IMG/VR virus record: IMGVR_UViG_3300024264_000015
Coordinates: 1-64,000 of that record
DNA from: a virus
Direction: 5' to 3' (one strand)
DNA length: 64,000 nucleotides
Shown: positions 174 through 59,132 of the stretch, piece after piece
How positions within the stretch are numbered: position 1 is the stretch's first letter
Layout: each line of letters opens with the position of its first letter
The notes under the pieces: model-generated
Told to the model about the DNA's origin: nothing
Database searches by the model: none
What the model saw: only the letters and a program-made list of their open reading frames with translations
Translations under genes and position numbers: made by a program

Positions 174-224
174 GCTTCACACTTCCTTAACATCAAAATT
201 CTTTATGTTAATTCAAAATAGTTC

Positions 225-253
225 TTGACAAACCCCTCAAACATCTGTATAAT
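225..253 (+). promoter_or_regulatory. Sigma70-type promoter, TTGACA-17-TATAAT
   Basis: A perfect TTGACA (225-230) is followed by 17 bases and a perfect TATAAT (248-253). The upstream block AAAATAGTTC is shared with most other promoters in the window. It should drive the rightward operon 379-3426. An ATG lies six bases after the -10 box at 260. Confidence 0.9.
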
Positions 254-2661: not shown

Positions 2662-2906
2662 TGACGGAACATACAGACATAGTAGAAAAACGAAGACTCT
2701 ATCTAGAAGCAGAAGATTGGGGTAATAAAATATCCCAACACTACTGTACTAAAGGTGGTAGAGGAGACTTAGGTTTTGGAATGGGTTACTTTGTATATTA
2801 TAACAATGGAGCAGTACATAAACTAGAAGGAAAGAGGATAAGTATAGTGCAAGTTCCTAAGAGTATAGAAGAAGTCATTGACGACTACGGAAGGAGTCAA
2901 GCATGA
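2661..2906 (+). CDS. Hypothetical protein, 81 aa
   Basis: An 81-residue product with a charged N-terminal helix, a glycine-rich middle (TKGGRGDLGFGMGYFVYYNNG) and an acidic end. No family is recognised. It overlaps the upstream stop by one base and the next gene by an ATGA. Its position between the DUF1281-like gene and an HTH gene gives no firm hint about function. Confidence 0.6.
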   Translation: MTEHTDIVEKRRLYLEAEDWGNKISQHYCTKGGRGDLGFGMGYFVYYNNGAVHKLEGKRISIVQVPKSIEEVIDDYGRSQA

Positions 2907-3217
2907 TTAACTACACACAAGACCAAGTAGAGTATATAACTAACCAATATAGACTTAAACCTGATAGAGATACAGTAGAAAAACTAGCAGAAGAACTAGA
3001 TAAGAGTGTAAAATCGATTATAGGTAAACTATCAAGAGAAGGAGTCTATAGAAAGACTGAATATACAACCAAAGCGGGTGAGAAACCAGTCACGAAACTA
3101 GAAATAGTCCAAGAAATGGCTGACCTACTAGAAATACCAGTAGAAAAACTATTAGGACTAGAAAAATCACCAAAAACAGTACTAAAACTATTAAGAAATT
3201 CACTAGGAGAAGAATAA
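2903..3217 (+). CDS. Myb/SANT-like helix-turn-helix protein, 104 aa
   Basis: Residues 1-50 carry a three-helix pattern: YTQDQVEYITNQY, then DTVEKLAEELDKSVKSIIGKLSREGVY. The last part is the recognition-helix motif (S-x-x-S-I-x-x-K-L-x-x-x-G-V-Y) seen again in the proteins at 4136, 15521 and 21069. The C-terminal half is a second helical unit (LEIVQEMADLLEIPVEKLLGLEK). It probably binds DNA; the target is unknown. Start is by ATGA overlap with the upstream gene. It is one of at least four paralogous HTH proteins in the window. Confidence 0.7.
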   Translation: MINYTQDQVEYITNQYRLKPDRDTVEKLAEELDKSVKSIIGKLSREGVYRKTEYTTKAGEKPVTKLEIVQEMADLLEIPVEKLLGLEKSPKTVLKLLRNSLGEE

Positions 3218-3921: not shown

Positions 3922-4149
3922 TCACGAACGTTTTGTAATTCTACGAAATCTCTCGCGTTCAAAGAGTTTTCGTGCCTCTAATTCTCGTGAACGCTTTCGA
4001 TAATTGTTCGTTTCATTTCTTTTAGCGTTGGGTTTTATGTAATATTTTCTGTTTCTGCACTCCTCTTTTATCCCAGCGTTATCACACTTTTTCCGAAAGA
4101 TTCGAAGTCCTTTTTCGAAACTCATTCCTTTTAACTCAACTTTTGGCAT
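3922..4149 (-). CDS. rpsU: Viral small ribosomal subunit protein bS21
   Basis: A 75-residue homologue of bacterial bS21. Family features are MPKVELKGMSFEKGLRIFRK, then KKCDNAGIKEECRNRKYYIKP and a long basic C-terminal helix rich in Arg and Lys. The start is ATG at 4149: it has an excellent ribosome binding site (AGGAGGG four bases upstream), and the bS21 fold begins there, so an in-frame ATG at 4239 is not the start. bS21 sits near the anti-Shine-Dalgarno end of 16S rRNA and helps initiation. Phage-encoded bS21 is known from marine phages. It could bias host ribosomes toward phage messages (inference). It is last in a leftward operon and overlaps the HTH gene by 14 bases. Confidence 0.9.
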   Translation of the reverse strand: MPKVELKGMSFEKGLRIFRKKCDNAGIKEECRNRKYYIKPNAKRNETNNYRKRSRELEARKLFERERFRRITKRS

Positions 4150-4312
4150 TTGCCCTCCTGTGAAAAGTCCATCCACGTTTTCGTAGATAGTATACTTGTG
4201 AGGCGATTTGTGACGTACTTCTGTCCAGCTGTTTTGCAATATCTTCTGTTGACATACGATTGTAGTGTCTTTTCAAAAAATCTTTTTCTACCATTGTCCA
4301 TGTTTTATTCAT
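4136..4312 (-). CDS. Miniature Myb-like helix-turn-helix protein, 58 aa
   Basis: A 58-codon frame from ATG 4312 to TGA 4136 overlaps the oxygenase gene upstream by eight bases and the bS21 gene downstream by 14. The product is almost only one DNA-binding domain: WTMVEKDFLKRHYNRM, then STEDIAKQLDRSTSQIASQV and YYLRKRGWTF. This is the Trp-first three-helix layout of the other HTH proteins in the window. Its place inside the bS21 operon suggests an autoregulator, but that is inference. Its short length makes it easy to miss. Confidence 0.7.
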   Translation of the reverse strand: MNKTWTMVEKDFLKRHYNRMSTEDIAKQLDRSTSQIASQVYYLRKRGWTFHRRANAKS

Positions 4313-4811
4313 AAATTGTTACCACCATCATTGTTCTATGTCCCACTTTCGGATAGTAATGAAAGTGAGTACGGTTTTTAAATAAAAGTGCTTTCCATTG
4401 CTCTGGATAGCAAACGTGTTCTATTTTGCCATCATCTCCAATTACAACGGTTGCACTCGTGTTATCGAGTGGTTGATTGAGACAAAGTAGAAAATTATAA
4501 TATTCTCCACTGTGGTCTCTGTGAGGTAAACATTTGACTTGTCCATTGGGAAAAGTATTGTTTATACGAAATGTTTCTATTTTATCTAGGTCTACTTCTT
4601 TTCCAAAGTGTTTTTGCCAAAAAGCATCGAGAACATCAATCCACTCTGTTTCGTGTTCATCAATTAGGTGCATTTTGTCAGCAACAAAGAAAGGACTCAG
4701 GTGAACTGGGTCAACGTTCCAAGGTAATAATCTAAATAGAGTTTGGTCAGTATAAGTAGTAATCTGCTCTTTTAGTTCTTTTGATAAGAAATTTTTATCC
4801 TCAATTATCAT
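4305..4811 (-). CDS. 2-oxoglutarate/Fe(II)-dependent oxygenase
   Basis: A 168-residue protein with the double-stranded beta-helix iron site. The H-x-D pair is H97 and D99 in LPHRDHSGEYYNF, the distal histidine is H149 or H151 (NRTHFHYY), and R159 in VGHRTMMVVT fits the 2-oxoglutarate-binding arginine. Such enzymes hydroxylate protein, nucleic acid or small-molecule targets; the substrate here is not known. It is second in a leftward operon with another oxygenase (11-base overlap) and bS21, which makes a translation-linked protein substrate possible but untested. Confidence 0.75.
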   Translation of the reverse strand: MIIEDKNFLSKELKEQITTYTDQTLFRLLPWNVDPVHLSPFFVADKMHLIDEHETEWIDVLDAFWQKHFGKEVDLDKIETFRINNTFPNGQVKCLPHRDHSGEYYNFLLCLNQPLDNTSATVVIGDDGKIEHVCYPEQWKALLFKNRTHFHYYPKVGHRTMMVVTIYE

Positions 4812-5340
4812 AGTAAAATGTTCCTACAAGTACTACTCTTATTCCTTTTTTGGGTAATAAAAATGTATGTTTCAGATTAGAGAAAAGAAGTGAAGCTCCT
4901 GCTTTTGCTGGAAACTTATGTTCTTTGCCTTCTTCATCAAAAACGATAGTAGACAATTCAGGATTATTTGTTATATAAGTAATCATACTATAACAGTTTT
5001 TCTGATTCCAATGAAAGTCTCTGTGTATATTGACATCTACATCTCTAGAATAGTTTACATTGATACAAAGTCTGTTAACGTAATCTGGTTTTGGCATACC
5101 CATCTTTTCTAGTATACCATACCATATATCTACCATCTGTTGTCTATCTTCTTCTATGTTTACTGGATAATCTCTTAAAGGTTCTCTTGCTGGTTCATTT
5201 TTAGTAATAAAATGAGATGCAAACATTCCAAGTTCATCATCATCTGTAAAATTTAAAGAGAATTGATACCTTAATTTATCAAAGAATAGCCCGAAATGCG
5301 ATTCCGTTATATTTAGTGTATTTTCTAGATATTTTATCAT
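4801..5340 (-). CDS. 2-oxoglutarate/Fe(II)-dependent oxygenase, leaderless start
   Basis: A 179-residue oxygenase with H106-R-D108 (NIHRDFHWNQ), distal H158 (NLKHTFLL) and R168 (KGIRVVLVGTFYY). The start is set at ATG 5340: an ATG at 5355 in the same frame lies upstream of the -10 box of the only visible promoter and would not be transcribed. ATG 5340 falls six bases after TATAAT, so the message is expected to be leaderless. It is the first gene of the leftward operon that ends with bS21. The substrate is unknown. Confidence 0.75.
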   Translation of the reverse strand: MIKYLENTLNITESHFGLFFDKLRYQFSLNFTDDDELGMFASHFITKNEPAREPLRDYPVNIEEDRQQMVDIWYGILEKMGMPKPDYVNRLCINVNYSRDVDVNIHRDFHWNQKNCYSMITYITNNPELSTIVFDEEGKEHKFPAKAGASLLFSNLKHTFLLPKKGIRVVLVGTFYYDN

Positions 5341-5346
5341 ACGAAT

Positions 5347-5375
5347 ATTATACAAAAATTTTTAATTGCTGTCAA
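5347..5375 (-). promoter_or_regulatory. Leftward promoter of the oxygenase-bS21 operon
   Basis: Reverse strand: TTGACA (5375-5370), 17 bases, TATAAT (5352-5347), with the shared upstream block AAAATAGTTC. The ATG of the oxygenase begins six bases after the -10 box. It is back to back with the rightward promoter at 5407. Confidence 0.9.
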
Positions 5376-5406
5376 GAACTATTTTTAGATATGTTATAGA
5401 TTATTC

Positions 5407-5435
5407 TTGACTTATGCTCGCAAAGTTGCTATAAT
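5407..5435 (+). promoter_or_regulatory. Sigma70-type promoter, TTGACT-17-TATAAT
   Basis: TTGACT (5407-5412), 17 bases, TATAAT (5430-5435). The start codon of the small membrane protein at 5442 is six bases further on. Confidence 0.85.
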
Positions 5436-5441
5436 ATATCT

Positions 5442-5588
5442 ATGAATGAAAATGATATATACTATTTATTTTTCCTAGTGATGTGTGTACATATTGCTTA
5501 CTCATTAGGAAAACAATTCGGAATACAAACCACGATAGACTATTTAGAAAAGGAAGGAATTTTAGAGTTCGATGACTCTGAAAAATAG
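5442..5588 (+). CDS. Leaderless small membrane protein, 48 aa
   Basis: A 48-codon frame whose ATG is six bases after a TATAAT box, so no room exists for a ribosome binding site. Residues 6-21 (IYYLFFLVMCVHIAYS) form one membrane segment. The C-terminal tail is acidic (DYLEKEGILEFDDSEK). The stop TAG at 5586-5588 lies inside the conserved block of the next promoter. I believe similar small proteins exist in marine phages, but no function is known to me. Confidence 0.7.
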   Translation: MNENDIYYLFFLVMCVHIAYSLGKQFGIQTTIDYLEKEGILEFDDSEK

Positions 5589-5591
5589 TTC

Positions 5592-5620
5592 TTGACATCA
5601 AGGTTAATTTTTGATATAAT
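5592..5620 (+). promoter_or_regulatory. Promoter of the hsp20-lysis operon
   Basis: TTGACA (5592-5597), 17 bases, TATAAT (5615-5620), preceded by AAAAATAGTTC. Unlike its neighbour it has a long leader of about 70 bases before the first gene. Confidence 0.9.
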
Positions 5621-5699
5621 TATTTTGTAAGTGATAGTTTCACTTGCATATTGGTGCGTCTACCGAAAGGAGACGTGAATTATTTACTGAAAAGGAATT
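5621..5699 (+). promoter_or_regulatory. Structured 5' leader of hsp20
   Basis: Two hairpins are visible: AAGTGA 5629-5634 with TCACTT 5640-5645, and CGTCT-A-CC (5657-5664) closed by a GAAA tetraloop (5665-5668) on GG-AGACG (5669-5675). The second traps a GGAG. The ribosome binding site (AAAAGGA) just before ATG 5700 lies outside. The leader could stabilise the message or respond to temperature, as leaders of small heat-shock genes often do; this is inference. Confidence 0.45.
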
Positions 5700-6092
5700 A
5701 TGGAGAAAAATATGAGTATAGATTTAAGCAAATTTTGGCTTGGATTGGATATGCCCACATTACCGTCTTACACGGATGCAGCATATCCACGATATAACTT
5801 AATCGAAAAGGCAGGAGACTATCGTATAGAAGTCGCAGTGCCAGGATGGAGCAAAGATGAGTTGGAGATTGTTTTTGATAACAAAGAACTCCACATCAAG
5901 GGTAAAAAAGAAACAAAACTAGGAGAAGATGAGAATTTTATTCATCAAGGACTAAGTCTAAAATCTTTTGAACGAAGATTTATTCTAAACGCCGACCTAC
6001 AAGTAGAGAAAGTAAGTCTACAAGACGGATTGTTGACAATCACACTGTTACGAACTCCAGATTCCAAGAGAAAAATCTTGGAGATTAGTTGA
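5700..6092 (+). CDS. hsp20: Hsp20 small heat-shock protein
   Basis: A 130-residue protein with an alpha-crystallin domain at about residues 34-125: YRIEVAVPGWSKDELEIVFDNKELHIKG, then SFERRFILNADLQVEKVSLQDGLLTITL. It ends RKILEIS, close to the C-terminal I-x-I anchor that binds the edge of the domain. Hsp20 proteins hold unfolding proteins without ATP. Phage copies are common in marine T4-like phages, where a role in scaffolding or head assembly is suspected. A second ATG five codons later is possible. It has its own promoter and a structured leader. Confidence 0.9.
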   Translation: MEKNMSIDLSKFWLGLDMPTLPSYTDAAYPRYNLIEKAGDYRIEVAVPGWSKDELEIVFDNKELHIKGKKETKLGEDENFIHQGLSLKSFERRFILNADLQVEKVSLQDGLLTITLLRTPDSKRKILEIS

Positions 6093-9300: not shown

Positions 9301-9994
9301 CTTACTCACACATGACGTCAATGGCGAAGTAGAAACCTTGCCTGAGATAGAGAAGAAAAGAAAAGAATATCCTCGCAGTGCTGGTCCAGGAAGCCCTGCT
9401 CAAGAAGTTGTCTCATTATACAGAGACATAGCTAAGATTTTTAAGAGTACTACATACTTAAATTTAGGACAAAGAAATCCTGATTTTATACATGGAGACT
9501 CTTTTCAAATATACTACTCCCACCCAAACTATAAAAGCACCCCCTATATTTCAAGTTATCCTCCTATAAAGAAAGCGATAAAAAGTATATTATGGGCTTG
9601 TAATATGCAAAACCAACAACCCGCTTCAGAGTTAGAAGAACCTTTAGTAAGAAGTGCTAGACTGAATAATTATGATAGACCTATGAGAATAGAAGTTATA
9701 AAATTATATAAAGATGTAACAGTCACAGTACCTAAGAAAAGAAAATCAGCTATATTTTTATTAGAAGGAGATATATGGGTACTTACATCTAAAACCAGTA
9801 GTGTCGAACAAATGCTGTATATATCAGATATAAGACATGGTGAACAAGGGTTATGGTTAAAAGCTCTGCGAGAAAGAGAAATGTTCCCTAGAAGAATATT
9901 AGGAGAAAACACAGGCGTACTTACAGGAAATATATTAAAAACTACCATAGTACCAGAAAAAGACTCATCAATAGTAGTGGTAGATTATGCTTAA
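9278..9994 (+). CDS. Hypothetical protein, 238 aa
   Basis: A soluble alpha/beta protein with no recognised motif. The first 45 residues look disordered and charged, with a GPGSPAQEVV turn, followed by a globular part and a C-terminal region rich in Ile, Val and Thr. It overlaps its neighbours by 23 and 8 bases. It stands directly before a glycosyltransferase, which gives no proof of a link. Confidence 0.6.
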   Translation: MAKTTLDDLLTHDVNGEVETLPEIEKKRKEYPRSAGPGSPAQEVVSLYRDIAKIFKSTTYLNLGQRNPDFIHGDSFQIYYSHPNYKSTPYISSYPPIKKAIKSILWACNMQNQQPASELEEPLVRSARLNNYDRPMRIEVIKLYKDVTVTVPKKRKSAIFLLEGDIWVLTSKTSSVEQMLYISDIRHGEQGLWLKALREREMFPRRILGENTGVLTGNILKTTIVPEKDSSIVVVDYA

Positions 9995-10742
9995 AATATT
10001 TATAGGAACAAGCGAACACCAAGACACAGCAGCAGAAAGGGTGCTTGTGTATTCATTACATAGAAATACTAATTATAACTTAGATATAACATTTTTAAGA
10101 CCTAGTATGTTTCCTGATTGGGATAGAAGTACTTGGGGTACTCCTTTTTCATACTTTAGGTATGCTATACCAGAGTTGTGTAATTGGAAAGGCAAAGCTA
10201 TATACATGGATGTAGACCAATTAAATTTTAGAAATATAGGAGACTTGTGGAATACAGATTTAGAAGGAAAGCCTTTTGGTATGTGCTGGGAAGCGGATAA
10301 CTGGAATGGTGGAAAGCATAGAGGAACACCTCTTGAGAGAGGTTGGTATTCTGATAGCGTAATGGTAATAGATTGTGAAAAAGCAAAAGAGTGGGTAGAT
10401 GAGATACATCATATTAGAGATATAAATAATGTAGGCGACACTTACAAGTATGTATTTTTTGCTAAGTGCGGAGCTCCCTACAAAGAAAAAGCAACTATGA
10501 TACATGAGATAGATGCAAGGTGGAATAGTTTTGATGGAACAAATACTAGCATTGCTGGTGCAAATACACACTATGATATACAGGATATATGGCATGTACA
10601 CTTTACAGGATTAAGTTATCAGCCGTGGCATCCAAATTACATCTATTCTCTAAAAGGAACTCATGAAAGAAGCGACATAACAAATGTTTGGTGGAAATAT
10701 CACAAGATTATAAATGATGAGTTATTATTAAATGAGATTTGA
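9987..10742 (+). CDS. Glycosyltransferase, GT8-like
   Basis: A 251-residue GT-A fold enzyme. It opens MLKIFIGTSEHQDTAAERVL, and the metal-binding D-x-D is in KAIYMDVDQLNF. A later IWHVHFTG histidine stretch matches GT8-type metal sites. It should transfer a sugar from a nucleotide donor to a glycan or protein. A second GT8-like gene lies at 45337. It overlaps the cupin-type oxygenase gene by 11 bases. Acceptor and sugar are unknown. Confidence 0.75.
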   Translation: MLKIFIGTSEHQDTAAERVLVYSLHRNTNYNLDITFLRPSMFPDWDRSTWGTPFSYFRYAIPELCNWKGKAIYMDVDQLNFRNIGDLWNTDLEGKPFGMCWEADNWNGGKHRGTPLERGWYSDSVMVIDCEKAKEWVDEIHHIRDINNVGDTYKYVFFAKCGAPYKEKATMIHEIDARWNSFDGTNTSIAGANTHYDIQDIWHVHFTGLSYQPWHPNYIYSLKGTHERSDITNVWWKYHKIINDELLLNEI

Positions 10743-11421
10743 AGAGCTACTAAGCCCCATCGGGGTAGAAAAGTTTTATAAAGAACTTAAACATAAGAAG
10801 GCATTTTATATCAAGTCAGATAAAAATATCTTTGAAAATTATTTTAGTTGGGAAGAACTAGATAATTATATGAATCAAAATAAGATTGGTGCATGGGACA
10901 GAACTCCACAATTACAAATGGTTATGCCAAGTGGTAGAAAGTGGTGTAAGAAAAAGTCCCAAAAGAAAAGAAGTAGAAAAGAAATATTTGATTTATGGAA
11001 TCAAGGCAGTAGCATGATACTTACATTGAGTGAGTTCTTAAATGAAACCATGTGGAAACAATGTCAAGAGTTTGAAAAACATTATGGAGTTGGGCAGGCA
11101 AACATATATTGCAGTAAGCAAGCAAAAGCTAAGACCTTTCCAATCCATGCAGATAGTACCGATAACTTTCTCTTTCATGTAAGAGGAAAAATTCGTTGGT
11201 ACATATATAAAGAGTTCGTAACTGATAACTATCACCCCAAAGAAGAGGAGGTAACTGTCAGTCGAATAATAGAGCTGGACGAAGGTGATTTTCTTTACAT
11301 TCCGAAAGGTCTATTTCATAGGGTAGAAACCCTAAGTCCAAGAATATCAATTAGTTTTCACTTTCGAGAGAAAGGAGACAAACCTTACATAAGAAATGAT
11401 TGGTATGATTGGAAGCCGTAG
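10732..11421 (+). CDS. JmjC/cupin-4-type 2-oxoglutarate oxygenase
   Basis: A 229-residue protein with a cupin-4/JmjC core: H139-A-D141 (FPIHADSTDNFLFHVRG), then GDFLYIPKGLFHRVETL giving the distal H196. Bacterial relatives such as YcfD hydroxylate ribosomal protein uL16, while others act on nucleic acids or small molecules. The target here cannot be told. It is coupled to a glycosyltransferase upstream. Together with the oxygenases at 4305, 4801, 13080 and 30317 it makes a set of five. Confidence 0.75.
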   Translation: MRFEELLSPIGVEKFYKELKHKKAFYIKSDKNIFENYFSWEELDNYMNQNKIGAWDRTPQLQMVMPSGRKWCKKKSQKKRSRKEIFDLWNQGSSMILTLSEFLNETMWKQCQEFEKHYGVGQANIYCSKQAKAKTFPIHADSTDNFLFHVRGKIRWYIYKEFVTDNYHPKEEEVTVSRIIELDEGDFLYIPKGLFHRVETLSPRISISFHFREKGDKPYIRNDWYDWKP

Positions 11422-15457: not shown

Positions 15458-15467
15458 AAAATAGTTC

Positions 15468-15496
15468 TTGACTCATGCTTAAAATTCTTGTATAAT
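15468..15496 (+). promoter_or_regulatory. Sigma70-type promoter, TTGACT-17-TATAAT
   Basis: TTGACT (15468-15473), 17 bases, TATAAT (15491-15496), preceded by AAAAAATAGTTC. A 20-odd base leader with AAGGA leads to ATG 15521. With the terminator at 16000-16032 it makes a single-gene unit. Confidence 0.9.
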
Positions 15497-16718: not shown

Positions 16719-17687
16719 ATGAATAAGACAGAATACCTAGAATTATGTAATCAGAAGTATGCAGAGGGTAATCCTATATTACCTGACGAAGTATACGATA
16801 GACTCGTAGAGAATACCGCATTAGAAACACAAGTAGGATATAAACCTCAAGACACATGCTTTCGCGGCTTTGCACCTCTAGATTCACGATTCAAACATCC
16901 TTACCCAATGTATTCATTACAGAAAGTCTTTATCGGAGAAGATAAAGAACCAGATTGGGATTCCAAACAACCACACATTATGACTGCCAAGTTGGATGGC
17001 GCAGCTGTGTCTATTACATACATAGATGGCGAACTAACACAGGCATTAACTCGTGGAGATGGCAGAGAAGGATTAGATATTACTGGAAAAATGAAAACTT
17101 TAGTACCAAATCAAATATGGAGTAAAGGACTGAAACAGATTACTGGAGAAGTCGTTGCACCAAAAGAAATACCAAACGCTAGAAACTATGCGAGTGGTGC
17201 TTTGAATCTAAAGGACTTAGAAGAATTTAAATCTCGTAATCTTACATTTATATCTTATGGTATTCAACCAGCAATTTGTGTTGATTGGATTGAAGATATG
17301 ACTATGGTAAAAGATATGGGATTTAACACTGTCACAGAAAGTGATTGGACTGAATTTCCTCACGATGGTAAAGTTGTAAGGGTCGACTCTAATATATATT
17401 TTGAAACATTAGGCCACACCTCACACCATCCAAGAGGAGCTTTCGCTCTGAAGACAAGACAGGCAGGAGTAGTTACTCGACTCTTAGATGTTGAATGGAA
17501 TGTCGGGAAGTCAGGTGCTGTTTCACCAGTCGCAATCTTAGAGCCATGTGTGATAGGAGAGGCAACAGTTAGCCGTGCCACCTTACACAATATCGGATAT
17601 ATCGAAGCACTAGACCTAGAGATAGGGTGTAATGTAGAAGTTATTCGTAGTGGAGAAATCATACCTCGAATTGTAAAACGAGTATAA
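16719..17687 (+). CDS. NAD+-dependent DNA ligase, N-terminal part (nucleotidyltransferase and OB)
   Basis: The 322-residue product holds a short Ia-type NMN-binding segment (LPDEVYDRL), the adenylation domain with active-site K91 in AKLDGAAVS, RGDGREG, and an OB-fold end (NVGKSGAVSPVAILEP, SRATLHNIGYIEALDLEIGCNVEVIRSG). It stops at the OB end. The zinc finger, helix-hairpin-helix and BRCT parts are in a separate gene at 20309. Two-gene NAD+ ligases are known in phage T5. The start codon lies at the expected transcript end, so the message is leaderless. A GIY-YIG-like gene follows after three bases. Confidence 0.85.
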   Translation: MNKTEYLELCNQKYAEGNPILPDEVYDRLVENTALETQVGYKPQDTCFRGFAPLDSRFKHPYPMYSLQKVFIGEDKEPDWDSKQPHIMTAKLDGAAVSITYIDGELTQALTRGDGREGLDITGKMKTLVPNQIWSKGLKQITGEVVAPKEIPNARNYASGALNLKDLEEFKSRNLTFISYGIQPAICVDWIEDMTMVKDMGFNTVTESDWTEFPHDGKVVRVDSNIYFETLGHTSHHPRGAFALKTRQAGVVTRLLDVEWNVGKSGAVSPVAILEPCVIGEATVSRATLHNIGYIEALDLEIGCNVEVIRSGEIIPRIVKRV

Positions 17688-20308: not shown

Positions 20309-21067
20309 ATGACAACAATTATACCACCGACTAACTGTCCTTGCTGTGACTCCATACTGGAGTTAGTAAACGAGCAGTTGTTCTGCAGAAACACGAAGTG
20401 TCCTGCGCAGTGGAGTAAAAAGTTAGAGTCCTTTTCATCTTCTCTTAAAATTAAAGGGCTTGGGCCAGCAACTATCAATAAGTTAGGTGTTGAATCATTG
20501 CCCGAGCTTTATGAACTTACTGTATCTGACGTACAAGATAGATTAGGGTCTCAAAGATTAGCTGAGAAACTCATTGATGAACTAGAAAAGTCAAAGAGTA
20601 GCAAGCTGGTAGATATTCTGCCTGCTTTCTCAATACCACTTATTGGTCGGTCGGCTTCTCAAAAATTATGCGATACAATATCAAACATCGAAGATATTAG
20701 CGAGAACAGTTGTACTGAGGCAGGTATCGGACCAAAAGCATCAGCTAACTTGGTAAACTTTATGGAGACTGAATTTTATCCTAACAGATACAAAGACACG
20801 TTACCCTTCAATTGGAATAATAAAATTAATAAAAAGAAAGAGGTCACAGGTGTTGTATGTATATCAGGTAAGTTAAAAAGCTACCCTACAAAGGCTCATG
20901 CTACGCAAGTACTAGAGTCATACGGATTTGTAGTAAAATCAAGTCTGACAAAAGAATGTACTCATCTTATAAATGAGTCAGGCATTGAGTCAGCAAAAAC
21001 ACAGACAGCTCGTGACCGAGGTGTTTTAATAATAACAAATATAAAACATTTAATAGAGGAATATTAA
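20309..21067 (+). CDS. NAD+-dependent DNA ligase, C-terminal part (Zn finger, HhH, BRCT)
   Basis: The 252-residue product starts with a four-Cys zinc finger (C10-x2-C13, C26-x4-C31, ending CPAQW), then helix-hairpin-helix repeats (LKIKGLGPATINKLG, and GIGPKASANLVNFM) and a BRCT domain (VVCISGKLKSYPTKAHATQVLESYGFVVKSSL, CTHLI) to the end. It lacks the catalytic lysine and needs the product of 16719. The two halves are 2.6 kb apart with separate promoters. The HhH part may be partly reduced compared with cellular LigA. Confidence 0.85.
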   Translation: MTTIIPPTNCPCCDSILELVNEQLFCRNTKCPAQWSKKLESFSSSLKIKGLGPATINKLGVESLPELYELTVSDVQDRLGSQRLAEKLIDELEKSKSSKLVDILPAFSIPLIGRSASQKLCDTISNIEDISENSCTEAGIGPKASANLVNFMETEFYPNRYKDTLPFNWNNKINKKKEVTGVVCISGKLKSYPTKAHATQVLESYGFVVKSSLTKECTHLINESGIESAKTQTARDRGVLIITNIKHLIEEY

Positions 21068-21068
21068 A

Positions 21069-21785
21069 ATGGCATTACCAAAATGGACAGATGAAAGAAC
21101 TCAACAATTGACAGACTTCATCGGTGGAGAAAGCCCTGTATCACAGGCAACTGTAGCTAACGCTGCAGAAGAACTAGAAACTTCAGTAAGAAGTGTTAGT
21201 TCAAAACTAAGAAAGATGGGTTTTGATGTTGAACTAGCTTCAGCTTCAGCAACTAAATCTTTCTCAGATGAGCAAGAATCAACTCTTGCAAACTTTGTGC
21301 AAGACAACAGTGGTTCTTACACATATGCAGAAATTGCATCAAACTTTGAAGGCGGAGCTTTTTCAGCTAAGTCAATTCAAGGTAAAATCCTTTCTATGCA
21401 GTTAACAGAACATGTTAAACCTGCACCTAAAGTTGAGACTGTTAAGTCTTATAACGAACAGGAAGAAGGACAGTTCGTATCATTAGTTAATGATGGTGCG
21501 TTTATTGAGGATATCGCAGAAGCTTTAGGCAGAAGTGTTAACTCAATCAGAGGAAAAGCTTTATCACTCTTAAGAGCTGGTGAAATCAATGCTATTCCTA
21601 AGCAGAAAGAAACCAAAGGTTCAAGCAAAGCTGACCCTTTAGCAGGTGTCGACATTGACGGCATGACTGTTGAAGAAATTGCTGATGAAATCGGCAAAAC
21701 AGTAAGAGGCGTGAAAACAATGCTTACTAGAAGAGGCTTACAGTGCTCAGACTATAACGGAGCTGCTAAAAAAGAAATAGGCTAA
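21069..21785 (+). CDS. Multi-HTH DNA-binding protein, four Myb-like units
   Basis: A 238-residue protein made of repeated units: residues 1-58 (KWTDERTQQLTDFI, SVRSVSSKLRKMGFDVE), about 65-120 (SFSDEQESTLANFV, SAKSIQGKILSM), about 125-180 (YNEQEEGQFVSLV, SVNSIRGKALSLL) and about 190-232 (MTVEEIADEIGKTVRGVKTMLTRRGL). Each ends in the S-x-x-S-x-x-x-K recognition-helix pattern. It follows the ligase part after one base and is closed by a strong terminator, so it should be well expressed. It may coat or regulate DNA. Confidence 0.7.
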   Translation: MALPKWTDERTQQLTDFIGGESPVSQATVANAAEELETSVRSVSSKLRKMGFDVELASASATKSFSDEQESTLANFVQDNSGSYTYAEIASNFEGGAFSAKSIQGKILSMQLTEHVKPAPKVETVKSYNEQEEGQFVSLVNDGAFIEDIAEALGRSVNSIRGKALSLLRAGEINAIPKQKETKGSSKADPLAGVDIDGMTVEEIADEIGKTVRGVKTMLTRRGLQCSDYNGAAKKEIG

Positions 21786-25719: not shown

Positions 25720-26264
25720 GTGAGTATGAAAAATTAAATGGAGGTATGAGATTTGCCCCAGACCCGAAGTGGGTAAACAATAAGTTTAATCATCATTGGA
25801 TGGGTTTATGTCATTTAATAGCTAAGTTGCAAATACAGCAAGGAAAGATGATAGAGATAGGAACATATGCTGGAGAAAGTACATCAATGTTTGCCTCTAG
25901 TGGTAAGTTCATAAGTATTGATACGATTGACCCTTATTATTGGCCAGGTAGTTATGAAGTAGAAATGCAGTACAAAGTAAATGTTCGATATTGGGATTAT
26001 ATAAAACTACACAAACATTACAGTCAAGACATTCACAATAGGTTTGACAACAACCAATACGACTTTGTATATATTGATGGAGACCACAGCGGAGAAAATG
26101 TAGCAAGAGACATAAAACAATACTTTCCAAAAGTAAAACCTGGCGGGTATATCGGTGGACATGATTACAACAAACACCACTGGCCCGAAGTATGCGCTGC
26201 AGTAGATAACGTATTTCCTCAAGTTGATACGTTTGCAGATACAAGTTGGTTATGCCAAAAATAG
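25716..26264 (+). CDS. Class I methyltransferase (Methyltransf_24-like)
   Basis: A 182-residue SAM-dependent enzyme. The SAM motif is GKMIEIGTYAGESTSMFASSG, followed by ISIDTIDPYYW, YDFVYIDGDHSGENVARDI and KPGGYIGGHDYNKHHWP. This form occurs in methyltransferases working on sugars and small molecules. It follows the epimerase by ATGA, so it may methylate the sugar made there. The TAG stop (26262-26264) is part of the next promoter's conserved upstream block. Confidence 0.8.
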   Translation: MSEYEKLNGGMRFAPDPKWVNNKFNHHWMGLCHLIAKLQIQQGKMIEIGTYAGESTSMFASSGKFISIDTIDPYYWPGSYEVEMQYKVNVRYWDYIKLHKHYSQDIHNRFDNNQYDFVYIDGDHSGENVARDIKQYFPKVKPGGYIGGHDYNKHHWPEVCAAVDNVFPQVDTFADTSWLCQK

Positions 26265-26267
26265 TTC

Positions 26268-26296
26268 TTGACAAATCCTTAAAATTTTGATATAAT
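26268..26296 (+). promoter_or_regulatory. Sigma70-type promoter of the primase-polymerase unit
   Basis: TTGACA (26268-26273), 17 bases, TATAAT (26291-26296), preceded by AAAAATAGTTC. The primase ATG is ten bases after the -10 box, so the leader would be only about four bases. Confidence 0.9.
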
Positions 26297-34345: not shown

Positions 34346-35238
34346 GTGTAGAAGTACAACTTAACTTAGAAAAAATGAGGCAGATGAAGATATTTCTTGC
34401 AACTCCAATGTATGGAGGTATGTGTCATGGTCTATACACAAAATCTTTAATGGACACAACAAATGTAGCAATGCAGTACGGAATACCTATTCAGATTTAT
34501 TATTTGTTTAATGAATCTTTAATTACTAGAGCAAGGAATTATTGTGTAGCAAACTTTTTAAAATCAGATGCTACGCATTTACTTTTTATAGATAGCGATA
34601 TACATTGGAGCGCAATGGACTTGATGTATATGTTACATATTGTAACAGAAAAACCAGAACTATATAGAATTATGTGTGCATTATATCCTAAGAAAACTAT
34701 TGCTTGGGAGAAAGTATTGAAAGCAGCAAAGTCAGGAGAGTATGATGAAAAACCATGGGAACTAGAAAGATTAGGAGGGGATATGGTATTTAATCCGTTA
34801 CCTGATGAGTACCCTGATGGAAGAGCACCTATCAATGAACCAGTAAAAATTAAAGAAGGTGCTACTGGATTTATGTTAATAGAAAGAAGTGTTTTTGAAG
34901 AGTATGCAGAAGCTCACCCCGAGTTACTATATACTCCTGACCATTTAAGAGAAGGAGAGTTTGCTTTAAATGAGAAGATTCATGCTTTCTTTGATTGTAT
35001 TATAAATGACCAAAACAGGTATCTATCGGAAGACTACATGTTCTCCGAGTATTGTAGAAATCTAGGTATGGACATATGGGCATTACCTATGATAGAGCTA
35101 ATGCATTGTGGTAGTTACGTATTTAAAGGTAGCATAGCAAGAATGGCGCAAGCCGATGTTCATGCTACAGTTGACGAGGAAACTATAATAAAAATGCAAA
35201 AGGCTAAAGCTGAAAAAGCTCAGAAAAATAGTTCTTGA
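34342..35238 (+). CDS. GT-A fold glycosyltransferase
   Basis: A 298-residue enzyme. The fold opens MKIFLATPMYGGMCHGLYTK after a short leader, with ESLITRARNY and the metal-binding D-x-D in HLLFIDSDIHW. The end contains EDYMFSEYCRNLGMDIWAL and a His-Cys-Gly pattern (LMHCGSYVF). Similar proteins are known in T4-like marine phages. The TGA stop (35236-35238) lies inside the next promoter's -35 box. Confidence 0.75.
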   Translation: MSVEVQLNLEKMRQMKIFLATPMYGGMCHGLYTKSLMDTTNVAMQYGIPIQIYYLFNESLITRARNYCVANFLKSDATHLLFIDSDIHWSAMDLMYMLHIVTEKPELYRIMCALYPKKTIAWEKVLKAAKSGEYDEKPWELERLGGDMVFNPLPDEYPDGRAPINEPVKIKEGATGFMLIERSVFEEYAEAHPELLYTPDHLREGEFALNEKIHAFFDCIINDQNRYLSEDYMFSEYCRNLGMDIWALPMIELMHCGSYVFKGSIARMAQADVHATVDEETIIKMQKAKAEKAQKNSS

Positions 35239-35263
35239 CACGCGCTTAAAAATTTGTTATAAT
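35235..35263 (+). promoter_or_regulatory. Sigma70-type promoter of the SSB unit
   Basis: TTGACA (35235-35240), 17 bases, TATAAT (35258-35263), with AAAAATAGTTC upstream. The ATG that starts the longest frame downstream directly abuts the -10 box. Confidence 0.9.
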
Positions 35264-48601: not shown

Positions 48602-51600
48602 TTATTCTGTCCATGTTGAACCGTCCCAGTAACTTGCACTAAAGTCGCTTATACTTGCGACTTCCGTGTCAAAGATTGTACCCGCCTGAGACGCTGTTAT
48701 TCTTTCAAATACTGTGGTACTCGTATTAAATGTAGTTGTGGTAAGGTGGTCAGTATCTCTAGTAGTTTCTGTTACCTTACCTGTGGCAAATGTTGTGGTT
48801 GTTGTTTTGCCTGTTTCAAATTCTGTTGTTCTAGTAGTTTCAAAAGTAGTTGTTGTGTCATACGCTGTAGACTTAGATGTCGTTGTAGACCTATTTGTCT
48901 CAAATGTAGATACTGTACTTCTGCTTGATGCTGTATCTCTTGCAGTAAGTGTTGCTCTAGCAGTATTAAATGTACTTGTAGTTTCTCTACTAGATTGCGT
49001 AGCTCTAGTGGTTATTGTTCCTAAAGTTGTAGCATATACTGTTGTTGTATCTCTACTTGTAGTTGTTCCTCTAGCTGTATTGAACGTAGTAGTAGTTGCT
49101 CTAGAAGTTCCTGTTACTCTTTGTGAGCCTCTACTTGTTAAGTATGCTGTTTCATATGCAGTACTTCTTGATGTGTTTGTATTTCTAGTAGTTCCGAATG
49201 ATGTATTATCTACATACGCTGTTGTTCTTGAAGTTTCTGTTCCTCTGCTTGTATTTGTGCTTCTACTTGTATTTGTACTTCTGCTTGTTGTAAATACTGT
49301 ATTATCTACATATGCTGTTGTATAGTTTGTATTTACTAAGAATACAGTAGTGAAATTAGTACTATCTACGTATGCGGTTGTTCTTGTAGTATTCGTATTT
49401 CTTGTAGTTGCAAAACTTGTATTATCTACATAGGCTGTTGTTCTACTTGTTTCAGTAGTTCTAGAAGTGTTTGTTGCTTGTGTAGTTGTATATGCAGTTT
49501 CATTTGTAAATGATGTATTATCTACATATGCTGTTGTAAATGATGTATTATCTACATACGCTGTTGTTCTTGAAGTATTTGTGCTTCTTGTAGTTGAGAA
49601 TGAAGTATTATCTACATAAGCTGTTGTAAATGATGTATTATCTACATACGCGGTTGTTCTAGCTGTATTTGTACTTCTTGTAGTTGAGAATGAAGTATTA
49701 TCTACATATGCTGTTGAGAAACTTGTATTATCTACATATGCTGTTGTTCTAGCTGTATTTGTGTTTCTTGTAGTTGCAAATGCAGTGTTATCTACATATG
49801 CTGTTGTAAATGAAGTGTTATAACTTGTGTTGTTTGTAAATCCTGTATCTCTACTTGTGTTAGTGGCTTGTGTTGTATTATATGCTGTGCTATTTGTAAA
49901 CCCAGTATTTCTACTTGTATTCGTTGCTTGTGTTGTATTATATGAAGTAGAGTTTGTAAAGCCTGTATTTCTACTTGTATTTGTAGCCTGTGTAGTTGTT
50001 CTAGATGTATTCGTGTTTCTAGAAGTGTTTGTGTTTCTACTTGTATTTGTTGCTTGCGTAGTATTGTAAGCAGTATTTCTAGAAGTATTCGTGTTTCTAC
50101 TTGTATTCGTTGCTTGTGAAGTATTGTAAGCAGTATTAAATGAAGTATTATTTGCAAATCCTGTAGACCTAGTTGTATTATATGAAGTATTACGTGCACC
50201 AGTTGCTCTAGTTGTATTTACTTGTCTAAATGCTGAACTTGCAGAAGTACCTGTTCTTCTTTGATAAGTTCCAGAATATCCACTATTCTGACCACCACCC
50301 CAGCCGGAATAATAGTTTCCTGGGCTAGACCAGTATACTGTAGTAATTCTATTGTAGTAATAAGTCAGGTATGAAGTAGAGTCTGTAGTTGACCTTGTAG
50401 TTCCATAAGAAGTATTCCTACTAGTATTTGTACCTCTAATTGTACCTCTACTTGTACCAAATGATGTGTTATCTACATAAGCTGTACTGTTTGTAAATCC
50501 TGTACCTCTAGTTGTTCCGAATGAAGTGTTGTCTACATATGCTGTACTATTTGTAAATGAAGTAGAGTTTGTAAATGAAGTACTAAAAGATGTGTTGTCT
50601 ACATATGCAGTGCCTCTAGTTGTATTTGTATTTCTTGTTGTACCAAATGAAGTGTTATCTACGTATGCAGTACTTCTACTTGTGTTTGTATTTCTACTTG
50701 TTCCAAAAGAGGTGTTATCTACATAAGCAGTAGACCTACTTGTATTTGTACTTCTTGTTGTGCTTCTTGTTGTACTTCTCGATGTATTTGTTGCTTGAGT
50801 AGTTGTATACGAAGTAGAGTTTGTAAATCCTGTAGACCTAGAAGTATTTGTAGATTGTGTAGTTGTTCTAGATGTATTTGTTGCTTGAGTAGTTGTATAC
50901 GAAGTATTATTAGTAAATCCTGTACTTCTACTTGTATTCGTAGACTGTGTAGTTGTTCTACTCGTATTAGTAGATTGTGTAGTATCATAACTTGTATTGT
51001 TACTAAATCCTGTACTTCTACTTGTGTTAGTAGACTGTGTAGTTGTTCTACTTGTGTTTGTACTTCTAGCTGTATTTGTATTTCTTGTTGTACCAAATGA
51101 AGTGTTGTCTACATATGCTGTTGCTGTTCCATATACAGTAGTTCTAGAAGTGTTTGTTGCTTGTGTAGTTGTATACGAAGTAGAGTTTGTAAATCCTGTG
51201 TCTCTTGATGTATTTGTATTTCTACTTGTAGTTACACTTGTATTAGAAGCTCTAGAAGTTGTTCTACTCGTATTAGTAGATTGTGTAGTATCATAACTTG
51301 TATTATTCGTAAATCCTGTATTATCTACATAAGCTGTTGATGTATTATATACAGTAGTTCTAGAAGTGTTTGTTGCTTGTGTAGTTGTATACGCTGTCTG
51401 GTTTGTAAATCCTGTAGACCTAGATGTACCAATTACAGTATCAAAACTTGTAACATATGTTGTAGTTGTATTGTAGTTGGTAGTAGTGCTACGTGCGGTA
51501 TTAAAGGTCGTAGTAGTTGTATACGTAGTAGTAGTATCGTGACTTGTTAAAAAAGTGGTTGTAGTTGTATACGCTGTTGTAGTATTAAATACTGTTGTAG

Positions 51601-52018
51601 TACCTTGTGTAGTTGTAAAGGTAGTTGTAGTATTGAATGTTGTAGTAGTTGTAAATAGAGTTGTAGTTGTAGTGGTTGTATTATATGTTGTAGTCGTATT
51701 GTGAGTAGTGCTTCTACTTGTATTCGTAGCTCTATCCGTATCAAATGTTGTTACTCTATCTGTGTTATATGTTGTTGTTGTGCCACGAGTTGTATCAAAT
51801 CCAGTAGTCGTATTAAACGCTGTTACCTGTACACCTGATATGGTAGTTCTAGCTGTTGCTGTATTTCTTGAAGTTTCGTGAACGACAGAAAATGGCCCTT
51901 CTAGAGCACCACTATCGTTTACGTATACTTCATTAACCCTTCGTATTGTGCCATTGTCGTTGATGGCGAGAAAGGATATCTGACGTAATGTACCATTGTC
52001 ATTAACATATATTGCCAT
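48602..52018 (-). CDS. Giant threonine-rich repeat protein, tail fibre/adhesin-like, 1138 aa
   Basis: The N-terminal 45 residues contain three related beta units (AIYVNDNGTLRQISFL, AINDNGTIRRVNEV, VYVNDSGALEGPF), as in phage fibre attachment parts. About 1000 residues follow of Thr, Ser, Asn and small residues with bulky ones (F, Y, R, Q) at alternate spacings of 6 and 4, i.e. a ten-residue repeat with some 16-residue variants. A unique Tyr/Gly-rich stretch lies near residues 545-600. The C-terminus ends ASYWDGSTWTE, probably a tip. It is likely an extended beta fibre. The repeat may carry O-glycans, which is speculation. Confidence 0.7.
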   Translation of the reverse strand: MAIYVNDNGTLRQISFLAINDNGTIRRVNEVYVNDSGALEGPFSVVHETSRNTATARTTISGVQVTAFNTTTGFDTTRGTTTTYNTDRVTTFDTDRATNTSRSTTHNTTTTYNTTTTTTTLFTTTTTFNTTTTFTTTQGTTTVFNTTTAYTTTTTFLTSHDTTTTYTTTTTFNTARSTTTNYNTTTTYVTSFDTVIGTSRSTGFTNQTAYTTTQATNTSRTTVYNTSTAYVDNTGFTNNTSYDTTQSTNTSRTTSRASNTSVTTSRNTNTSRDTGFTNSTSYTTTQATNTSRTTVYGTATAYVDNTSFGTTRNTNTARSTNTSRTTTQSTNTSRSTGFSNNTSYDTTQSTNTSRTTTQSTNTSRSTGFTNNTSYTTTQATNTSRTTTQSTNTSRSTGFTNSTSYTTTQATNTSRSTTRSTTRSTNTSRSTAYVDNTSFGTSRNTNTSRSTAYVDNTSFGTTRNTNTTRGTAYVDNTSFSTSFTNSTSFTNSTAYVDNTSFGTTRGTGFTNSTAYVDNTSFGTSRGTIRGTNTSRNTSYGTTRSTTDSTSYLTYYYNRITTVYWSSPGNYYSGWGGGQNSGYSGTYQRRTGTSASSAFRQVNTTRATGARNTSYNTTRSTGFANNTSFNTAYNTSQATNTSRNTNTSRNTAYNTTQATNTSRNTNTSRNTNTSRTTTQATNTSRNTGFTNSTSYNTTQATNTSRNTGFTNSTAYNTTQATNTSRDTGFTNNTSYNTSFTTAYVDNTAFATTRNTNTARTTAYVDNTSFSTAYVDNTSFSTTRSTNTARTTAYVDNTSFTTAYVDNTSFSTTRSTNTSRTTAYVDNTSFTTAYVDNTSFTNETAYTTTQATNTSRTTETSRTTAYVDNTSFATTRNTNTTRTTAYVDSTNFTTVFLVNTNYTTAYVDNTVFTTSRSTNTSRSTNTSRGTETSRTTAYVDNTSFGTTRNTNTSRSTAYETAYLTSRGSQRVTGTSRATTTTFNTARGTTTSRDTTTVYATTLGTITTRATQSSRETTSTFNTARATLTARDTASSRSTVSTFETNRSTTTSKSTAYDTTTTFETTRTTEFETGKTTTTTFATGKVTETTRDTDHLTTTTFNTSTTVFERITASQAGTIFDTEVASISDFSASYWDGSTWTE
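48700..51850 (-). repeat. Degenerate tandem DNA repeats encoding the Thr-rich protein
   Basis: The region is built from short near-identical units, such as those for TAYVDNTSF, TNTSRTT and GFTNSTSY, in varied order. Identical copies of 15-20 bases recur many times. Such sequence should recombine easily and vary in length between related phages. Confidence 0.7.
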
Positions 52019-52244: not shown

Positions 52245-55200
52245 TTATACCTCTATTGTTGTTCTTATGAACTTGTATGCCATTGTGTCTGCACTTGCTG
52301 GCGTTACTCTTAATCTTACATTACCTGCACTTACATCTGCGTCAAATGTTGCTTGTGCTCCATTGTCAAAGATAGACGCGTACTGTGTTAAGTATACATC
52401 TGACCCATCATGGAATAGGAAAATTTCTAATGCTTGATAATCTGAATCTGTTGTGTTTTTAATCTGTACTACATATTTAGCAGTTCTAAATACAGTAGTT
52501 GCAAAACTATCTAGTGTAAATACTGTCGTTGCAGATGAACTTCCTGTACCAACATCCATACCAGCTACTTCGTCTATGTGAAGTTTTTGTGGTGGATTAG
52601 TGTCTTGAATACCTATGCTACCTGCTACATTTACTTTATTAGATGTGCTTCCACCAAACCCTAAATCTCCTCCAAATGTAATACTTCCTGTCATTGTTTT
52701 ACCACCAAGTGCTGCACTTGATAATTGTGTAGTTGTTATAGAGTTATTTGCAATCTCACTTGACCCAATAGCGTTTGCTGCTATTTTACTGGCGTCTATA
52801 GCATTGTCTTGAATTTTTGCAGTTGTTACTGAATTACCAGCTAATTGTGCTGTATTAATTAGACCATCTTGTATAAAGCTAACGCTATTTATTGCGTTTG
52901 CAGCTAGTTGTGTTGCTGTGATAGAAGCGTTTGGTATTTTTGCAGAAGTAATAGCATTATCAGCTATCTCTACTGCTGTTATTGTACCATTTGGTATTTT
53001 AGCACCTGATACAGAGTTATCAGCTAATTTACCTACTGTTACTGCTCCTGTGCCTATTTGTTCTTCTGTTACTGCACCTGAAGCTATTTTGTTTACTGTT
53101 ACGGAGTTAGAACCAAGTTTTGCTTCTGTTACAGAACCAGTTGATAAATGAATAGCATCTATACTTCCTGTTACTAACTCTGCTGAATCAACGGAGTTAG
53201 AAGCAATATGTCTGGCTAGTACAGCGTCTGTTGCTAGTTTAGTAGCATCTATTGAGTTGTCAGCCATATTGCCTGTAGCAATAGTATTGGCTGCTATTTT
53301 TCCTGTTGTGACCGAGGCGTCTGCTAGATGCTCGTTATCTATACTTCCTGCAACATAATGTTCTGAATTTATAACATCATCTGCTATTTTTGTGCCGTCT
53401 ACTATGTCTGCGGCTAAATGTATTCTGTCTATACTGCCTGATACGAGTTCTGAACTGTCTACAGAGTTTGCTGCTAAGTGTAATGCTCCTACAGAGCCAG
53501 TAATTAATTCTGAAGCTCCGACAGCATTTGCTGCTATCTTACTAGCGTCTACAGCATTTGTTCCTATTTTTGCACTTATTACTGCACCAGAAGCTAACTG
53601 TGTAGAGCCTACTGCTCCTCCAGCTATTTCTGCAGCTCCTACAGCATTGTCTGCTATATGAGAAGCATCAATAGACCCTGTTGATATTTTATTAGCATTT
53701 ATTGCGTTATTTGCAATGTTTGGCCCTGTAATAGTTTCTGAGCCTACTTTGGCACCAGTGACTGCGTCATCTGCTAAGTGTATAGTATCAATGCTACCTG
53801 TCACTAATTCTGCTGAATCTACTGAGTTTGCTGCTAGTTCACTTGCTGTTATGCTTCCTGCGACTATCTTACTTGCATTTACTGTGTTGTTTGCAATCGC
53901 ACTTGCTGTTCCTGTTAAGTTACCTGTAACGTTGCCTTCTACATTTGCTACTATAGTACCTGTTGTAATTGTTAGGTCACCTGTTGAAGCACCTGTAAAT
54001 GTGCCTGTACCTACTTTAAATTTATCTTCACTTTCATCAAATCCTATAAATGCGTTATTTGAATCTCCTCTTTCAATTACTATACCAGCGTCTCCATTTG
54101 GAGACCCTGTTGTACCTGTACCTAATTCTAATAATGGGTCAGATATTGTAGTTGTAGTAGAGTTAACAGTCGTTGTTGTACCGTTTACTGTTAAGTTTCC
54201 TGAAAGTGTAACGTTTCCTGTGAATGTTTGACCACCTAATGCATCTGATTTAAGTTCAGAAGCTGATACTGCATTTGCTGATATTTCACTGTTACCAACT
54301 GCATTTGCGGCTATCTTTGCTCCTGTTACAGCATTGCCTGCTATATGTATTGCATCAATAGAGCCAGAGATTAATTCTGCGCTGTCTACTGAATTGTCTG
54401 CTAGTTCGCTTGAACCTACAGCACCTGCATTGATGTGTCTTGCTAGTATTTGGTCTGTTGCAATTTTTGCTGAAGTAACTTGGTTAGCTGCAATATGTAT
54501 TGTGTCAATACTACCAGTTGCTATTTCTGAACTATCTATTGAGTTTTCAGCTATATGTGTTACATCTATAACACCTGTACCTATTTTTGCAGCAGTGATT
54601 GAATTATCCCCTAAATGTATAGTATCTATACTACCTGTTACTAACTCTGCTGAATCTACTGAGTTTGCTCCTAAGTGGTCTGCTGTTATTGTTGCTGTAG
54701 GTATGTGTCTTGCAACGATTGAATTTTGTGCTATCTTAGTTCCGTCTACTGCGTTATCTGCAATATTGGCTAAGGCTATTGTATTGGCGGCTATTTTTGC
54801 GCCTGTTACTTGTAAGTTTCCTATATGTGCAGTATCTATACTACCATCTACTAAATGTTCTGAATCTATTGAGTCATCTGCAATTTTTGAGCCACTTACT
54901 GCATCCGCTCCTATTTTTCCACTAGTTACTGCTCCTGTACCTATTTTTGCTTCTGTTACTTGTGAAGCTCCAATATGTATAGTATCAATGCTACCTGATA
55001 CAAGTTCAGAACTATCAATAGAGTTTGCAGCTATTTGTGTAGAACCTACACTATTAATTCCTACATTGGAACTATTTACTATTGCTGTCCAACCCATGTT
55101 AGCGTGTGCTGAACATTGGTAATACAATATTTGAGGAGTAGTACTCGTAACGGCAATTTCTGTGTATGCACCTGAACTTCCTGCTGTTCCGTTATTTGTA

Positions 55201-59074: not shown

Positions 59075-59103
59075 ATTATATCAAAAACTTGAGGTGGTGT
59101 CAA
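59075..59103 (-). promoter_or_regulatory. Leftward promoter of the fibre operon
   Basis: Reverse strand: TTGACA (59103-59098), 17 bases, TATAAT (59080-59075), with AAAAATAGTTC upstream. It drives 58715 and the leftward genes down to 46578. It has a leader with TAGGAG before the ATG at 59053. Confidence 0.9.
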
Positions 59104-59132
59104 GAACTATTTTTGAGGGGTATATGCTTAAC

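Follow-up and report, generated by a model that had tools for sequence, protein, structure and literature searches.

A small HTH gene is the constant partner of viral bS21 in a phage family, in a possible host-takeover cassette where oxygenases are optional

Among ribosomal proteins, bS21 is the one most often carried by phages (PMC9976891). E. coli ribosomes take up the bS21 of the Pelagibacter phage HTVC008M and are strongly impaired in vitro when they contain it (PMC6375957), while in another phage group bS21 is late-expressed, with transcripts tied to late replication (PMC9723584). In Flavobacterium, bS21 controls the use of Shine-Dalgarno (SD) sequences (PMC9976891). Prolyl hydroxylases that act on translation proteins are also on record: PPHD of P. 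putida hydroxylates EF-Tu (PDB 4iw3; PMC7864055), and OGFOD1 acts on uS12 (PMC4396695). The locus analyzed here lies in a stretch of 64,000 nucleotides, hereafter the window, taken from a virus record of 90,319 bases; the DNA polymerase encoded in that record has its closest relatives (43%) among T5-like phages. On its minus strand, from 5340 to 3922, genes for two 2-oxoglutarate (2OG)-type oxygenases, a 58-aa HTH protein and bS21 follow one another, each overlapping the next, by 11 nt (P0003/P0002), 8 nt (P0002/HTH) and 14 nt (HTH/bS21), an arrangement with a terminal bS21 that a preliminary description of this DNA had reported correctly (Table 1). Purifying selection acts on all of these genes (dN/dS 0.08-0.33; 0.11-0.31 for HTH and bS21). 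Elsewhere in the window no tRNAs were found, an NAD-dependent DNA ligase appears, on reading the sequence, to be split into two separate genes (16719-17687 and 20309-21067), and two very large repetitive proteins are encoded at 48602-52018 and 52245-56120, one made mostly of short repeats rich in T/N/S/R and the other of repeated 'IAANAV'-like units.

Table 1. Position, strand and supporting evidence of the operon features and of neighboring or related features in the window.
Feature	Position	Strand	Evidence
P0003, predicted prolyl-hydroxylase-fold 2OG-Fe(II)-type oxygenase, 179 aa, accessory	4801..5340	-	HRD...H...R, AlphaFold2, Foldseek
P0002, predicted prolyl-hydroxylase-fold oxygenase, paralogue of P0003, 168 aa, accessory	4305..4811	-	hhalign, AlphaFold2, Foldseek
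P0001, homeodomain/SANT-like HTH protein, 58 aa, invariant bS21 partner	4136..4312	-	Weak Pfam HTH matches, PHROG 323
P0004, viral bS21, 75 aa	3922..4149	-	PF01165, TIGR00030
SD AGGAGG of bS21, within the HTH gene	4154..4159	-	-10.8 kcal/mol
Sigma70-type promoter TTGACA-17-TATAAT	5347..5375	-	12/12 consensus
Family-wide promoter element AAAATAGTTCTTGAC, overlapping the -35 box	5371..5385	-	Exact copy
Divergent near-consensus promoter, predicted +1 at the ATG of a 48-aa ORF (5442-5588)	5407..5435	+	
Hsp20 gene, divergent neighbor kept across the family	5700..6092	+	PF00011, 1.4e-15
P0005, JmjC oxygenase of the MINA53/NO66/YcfD group, outside the operon	10732..11421	+	PF08007, 1.2e-15

That P0004 is a genuine viral bS21, as had been claimed, is borne out by scores above both the Pfam and the NCBIfam cut-offs (PF01165, E=2.6e-11, 43.5 bits with a cut-off of 27; TIGR00030, 38.2 bits with a cut-off of 28.95), and the profile of its family matches, at 1e-15, bS21 from bacterial ribosome structures in the PDB; a tblastn search of 50,697 phage records returned no match to it. 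Its SD is the strongest of 61 window genes at -10.8 kcal/mol, the median across the family being -8.6 kcal/mol, and 39% of window genes have an SD at or below -6 kcal/mol, compared to 6.5% of random sites. Autoregulation of the Flavobacterium rpsU type was considered and rejected, since it requires an SD-blind host in which SDs are found almost only on rpsU; a host of this kind is unlikely here because the phage uses SDs so widely. When the HTH-bS21 junction was searched for conserved RNA structure, RNAalifold gave only three pairs (-0.88 kcal/mol).

The HTH gene, treated in the preliminary description as a side feature, proved instead to be the invariant partner of bS21. It was found upstream of bS21 in 30/30 clusters first analyzed and, upon extension to IMG/VR relatives, in 82 of the 82 unique bS21 proteins of the phage family (44 clusters at 90%). 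Scans in both directions agreed, as the HTH gene was directly upstream in 54 of the 55 loci reached with bS21 as a seed, the remaining locus being truncated at the 5' side, and bS21 was directly downstream in all 80 loci reached with the HTH as a seed (the best 80 of 307 relatives). With distant HTH proteins (the best 80 of 219 relatives), bS21 lay no more than 1.2 kb downstream in 62/62 loci tested, four of which come from the HTVC008M scan. Of the first 30 clusters, 21 show an overlap of 14 nt between the two genes, six an overlap of 8-20 nt, and three have the genes apart. Phage bS21 is already known, and the HTH-bS21 module looks undescribed, no description of this gene pair having been found in the open-access literature. 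An invariant small partner provides a handle on phage bS21, as a DNA or ribosome target could be sought with two purified proteins.

Contigs recur between these scans, and all the linked loci belong to a single phage family, so that common descent accounts for some of the linkage. One could go further and argue that the pairing is nothing but synteny inherited within that family, devoid of any functional link, given that the HTH-linked loci examined also have flanking Hsp20 and lysozyme genes in common. We consider this unlikely, as the pair persists while bS21 identity drops to about 44%, and while the upstream genes, the intervening genes and even the bS21 lineage change. Two loci (L042 and L187) have an extra gene between the HTH and bS21, and one of them, L187, keeps the HTH pairing with a bS21 of a clearly different lineage. 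The presence of a weakly winged-HTH-like gene beside bS21 in T4-like pelagiphages also speaks against synteny as the whole explanation. The L187 contig was binned in a Halieaceae MAG, a possible host hint, and looks phage-like, with Hsp20-like and lysozyme-like ORFs; it shows the same kind of promoter, the HTH, an inserted ORF, the different bS21 and a divergent Hsp20. As a separate observation, within given phage pairs the HTH gene has a lower dS than bS21 and the oxygenases (e.g. 0.06 versus 0.12, 1.16 and 0.89), which may reflect recombination or an extra constraint at the nucleotide level.

Most loci of the T4-like pelagiphages that are related to HTVC008M have a gp110-like gene and Hsp20 after bS21, Hsp20 being near bS21 as in our family, and a phrog_81-type 2OG gene comes next mainly in the HTVC008M clade (loci with the T4-like arrangement are L071, positions 4229-6009, in HTVC008M, and L188-L235). 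Among 15 relatives of gp110, 8 match a winged-HTH model, though weakly (4.7e-4 at best). The neighborhood of bS21, Hsp20 and a small HTH-like protein may have two separate origins, even though such similarity is suggestive only.

Assigning the HTH protein to a family was less straightforward. P0001 matched no Pfam model at cut-off, with a best score of 18.5 versus 25.7 bits, but it did match PHROG 323, the D5-like regulators, at 3.5e-7; the Pfam matches of 22 members were weak and mostly to HTH families. Other relatives by profile include sigma region 4 and, weakly, GcrA; nothing in the PDB was matched significantly (GcrA, E=0.23). These relatives, being DNA-binding regulators, argue against the view that the small protein is not a DNA regulator and acts instead on the ribosome, by helping viral bS21 displace the host protein or by binding rRNA. 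Such a role would agree with the exclusive pairing and the overlapping genes, and phage products that aid bS21 exchange have already been proposed (PMC9976891), yet we regard it as improbable. Two further HTH genes of the window are worth reporting: a separate, full-length D5-like regulator at 21069-21785 (PHROG 323, 1.8e-42) and, at 2903-3217, another HTH protein with an IF2_N-type domain (3.4e-6).

The minus-strand sequence before P0003 reads AAAATAGTTCTTGACA-N17-TATAAT-ATTCGT-ATG, with the -10 box ending 6 nt before the ATG at 5340. The operon had been described as beginning leaderless, and our analysis agrees, as this consensus promoter (12/12) is predicted from the position of its -10 box to place +1 at the first ATG, and similar spacing is seen in relatives. 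An in-frame TTG at 5355 is unlikely to be the start of P0003, as it sits inside the promoter. With a strict pattern in which the ATG lies 4-9 nt after the -10 box, six promoter-to-ATG matches were observed in the window against 0.02 expected. In relatives, a promoter is found at leaderless distance from the ATG of the HTH gene in 62 of 75 non-redundant regions, compared to 1.5% of all plus-strand ATGs with the same spacing in the loci sampled. The 13 HTH 5' regions where the promoter is missing include the clade of the window itself (L002, L003, L007 and L012), in which oxygenase genes are found directly upstream of the HTH where other phages have the promoter; in L020, the promoter before the HTH is retained alongside an upstream oxygenase.

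The 15-mer AAAATAGTTCTTGAC occurs in 8 exact copies in the 90-kb record. Those in the window (215-229, 5371-5385, 5582-5596, 15458-15472, 26258-26272, 35225-35239 and 59099-59113) are at promoter-like sites, some with leaderless spacing. Allowing up to one mismatch, 8-13 copies are present in each of seven HTH-bS21 phage records and none in five T4-like bS21 records, and a control with the reversed pattern gave 0 matches. The element may be a site for a regulator, or part of a strong host-type promoter.

Searches with P0002 and P0003 against Pfam, PHROG and NCBIfam gave nothing meaningful. Because both carry HRD...H...R, because their families are homologous (hhalign probability 98%, E 2.5e-13), because five members of the P0002 alignment match PF13640, and because of the AlphaFold2/Foldseek matches, the two are best modeled as paralogous 2OG oxygenases with a PHD/P4H fold, not JmjC. 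The AlphaFold2 models (pLDDT 84.6 for P0003 and 86.9 for P0002) both had P. putida PPHD (4j25) as top Foldseek match and also matched human PHD2; prolyl hydroxylases were matched with probability 1.0 at E of about 2e-6 to 5e-6, and over the PPHD and PHD2 matches as a whole E was about 1e-6 to 1e-4, TM 0.5-0.7 and identity 10-19%. They had previously been likened to the YcfD class, an assignment we could not uphold, as they have no match to PF08007 (JmjC_2) and their closest folds are PPHD and PHD2. The PPHD-EF-Tu complex (4iw3) is also matched, and PPHD itself hydroxylates EF-Tu (PMC7864055); P0003 and/or P0002 might accordingly be imagined to modify a translation component other than bS21, such as host EF-Tu, as part of a looser translation module. 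This is quite unlikely in our opinion, as 12-18% identity and a TM of 0.5-0.7 are common to many PHD-fold enzymes with varied substrates, AlkB is among the matches too, and the distribution of these genes is that of accessory ones.

Such distribution also bears on the proposal of the preliminary description, that a viral ribosomal protein with linked hydroxylases forms a module that alters translation. What stands of it is that the genes share an operon and overlap, that HxD...H...R is intact in the window, and that the modeled folds are near those of prolyl hydroxylases acting on translation proteins, with OGFOD1 and uS12 as a precedent (PMC4396695). In addition, three 2OG arrangements recur in the slot before the HTH (P0003 with P0002, a P0003-like gene alone, and in L042 a third 2OG enzyme, PF13640 1.1e-6), and every P0003 homologue whose contig continues lies upstream of HTH-bS21 (tblastn of P0003 against phage isolates gave no match). 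What does not stand is the linkage itself. The oxygenases precede only 9 of the 82 unique bS21 proteins, and 2OG genes of any kind, that of L042 included, do so in 5/29 clusters, while other members of the family keep HTH and bS21 with an empty slot, a 150-aa ORF or a 124-aa ORF. Furthermore, 12 loci of the P0002 family in other phages had no bS21 in the flanks examined. In L069 (956-1456; same contig as L012), a P0002 homologue has its HRD replaced by QKT, and is probably catalytically dead but otherwise conserved, with bS21 kept. No column of the bS21 alignment separates phages with oxygenases from phages without them. The ribosomal oxygenases described so far have, to our knowledge, other proteins as their substrates, which also counts against bS21 as a substrate. 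Exchangeable slot contents, together with the 9/82 count, rule out a fixed oxygenase-bS21 module, and because the oxygenases are optional at this spot, modification of bS21 by them is not supported. We therefore hold it very unlikely that translation is altered through hydroxylation of bS21 (viral or host) or of another ribosomal protein by P0003, P0002 or both; some functional link to bS21 is possible, not likely, and is kept in consideration by the recurrence of 2OG genes in the slot and by the restriction of P0003 homologues to it.

More probably, the oxygenases have no functional connection with bS21 and are simply cargo whose substrates would be small molecules, DNA bases or virion proteins. 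2OG enzymes are numerous in marine phages of this sort, as exemplified in the window by P0005, P0007 and P0006 and in HTVC008M by six PF13640 matches, and the slot contents are exchangeable; the recurrence of 2OG genes at this very slot (5/29 clusters) is what this explanation accounts for less well. Proteins of the 2OG-oxygenase family are also encoded in L057 (6001-6489 and 8336-8821) and L042 (3048-3548), and the 'DNA endonuclease V' label that genes of this family bear in HTVC008M, as well as PHROG 274, looks like a misannotation.

A better candidate for the ribosomal-protein hydroxylase of this phage, judging from sequence, is P0005. This 229-aa protein matches PF08007 (JmjC_2) at 1.2e-15 (57.6 bits, cut-off 22) and, over the JmjC region, MINA53 and NO66 at 2.9e-10 to 1e-9 (best 2.9e-10 for MINA53 and 4e-10 for NO66) and YcfD at 0.014, with H139-x-D141 and H196 invariant. 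Nine of 11 HTH-bS21 records contain it, at 51-70% identity, and the two in which it was missed are fragments of 30-38 kb; it was found in 0/5 T4-like bS21 records, and it is a core gene of the HTH-bS21 family. The search for a viral ribosomal-protein hydroxylase is thereby shifted away from the variable oxygenases of the operon and toward a conserved JmjC gene at a distance of 5.4 kb; no description of phage JmjC ribosomal oxygenases was found in the open-access literature. P0005 adjoins a glycosyltransferase-like ORF, as read from the sequence (9987-10742), and among further 2OG/JmjC-type genes the window has P0007 and, by motif, P0006.

Building on the gene structure, the invariant HTH-bS21 pairing, the optional oxygenases and the conserved promoter, all directly observed, our best explanation is a host-takeover cassette that combines an HTH regulator with an overlapping viral bS21, the latter exchanging into the host 30S subunit, with the oxygenases as cargo; we would give it a probability of about 0.5, and it is compatible with cargo enzymes of any of the kinds listed above. 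According to this model, a consensus sigma70 promoter of the AAAATAGTTCTTGAC...TATAAT class would start transcription at the first ATG, or a base or two from it, with P0003 and P0002 as optional cargo between promoter and HTH. The HTH protein would most likely bind DNA and regulate this operon or this class of promoters. Because the bS21 start sits within the HTH gene behind the strongest SD of the window, the output of the two proteins would be linked, presumably through translational coupling. Viral bS21 would then exchange into host 30S subunits and bias initiation toward phage mRNAs. Against the cassette, the promoter element is also compatible with a strong promoter of the host type, and a phage regulator may not be needed; also, a sigma70 promoter at this position points to early or middle transcription, while phage bS21 has been reported as late (PMC9723584). 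Furthermore, because E. coli ribosomes with pelagiphage bS21 are strongly impaired (PMC6375957), the effect of the viral protein could be shut-off instead of redirection. A broader version, which we see as a long shot, would make the HTH, bS21 and P0005 a single conserved takeover programme, where control of the AAAATAGTTCTTGAC promoters across the family, several of which are leaderless, falls to the HTH protein, and viral bS21, perhaps together with a ribosomal protein modified by P0005, retunes host ribosomes to the mixture of leaderless and SD-led phage mRNAs that results. If true, transcription and translation would be switched together from one overlapping gene pair.

P0001 resembles the D5-like DNA-binding regulators of T5 (PHROG 323) in its profile match, but consists of a single 58-aa domain. 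P0002 and P0003 are predicted to share with PPHD and human PHD2 the double-stranded beta-helix fold and HxD...H...R, although identity is only 12-18%. P0005 matches the JmjC domain of the ribosomal oxygenases YcfD, MINA53 and NO66, but covers only that region of these longer proteins, to which P0002 and P0003 have no match. As in the Flavobacterium system, where rpsU is autoregulated by bS21-free ribosomes (PMC9976891), the strongest SD among the genes compared is that of bS21; unlike in that system, SDs are present on many genes of the phage. Finally, in common with the bS21 of HTVC008M (PMC6375957) and of Bacteroidetes phages (PMC9723584), P0004 is a bS21 family protein of a tailed phage with Hsp20 nearby, a gene which in HTVC008M is followed by a 2OG oxygenase. 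The phage studied here, however, belongs to a different lineage, with a T5-like DNA polymerase, and it differs from these phages in having an overlapping HTH partner upstream, a promoter predicted to be leaderless and a derived bS21 C-terminus.
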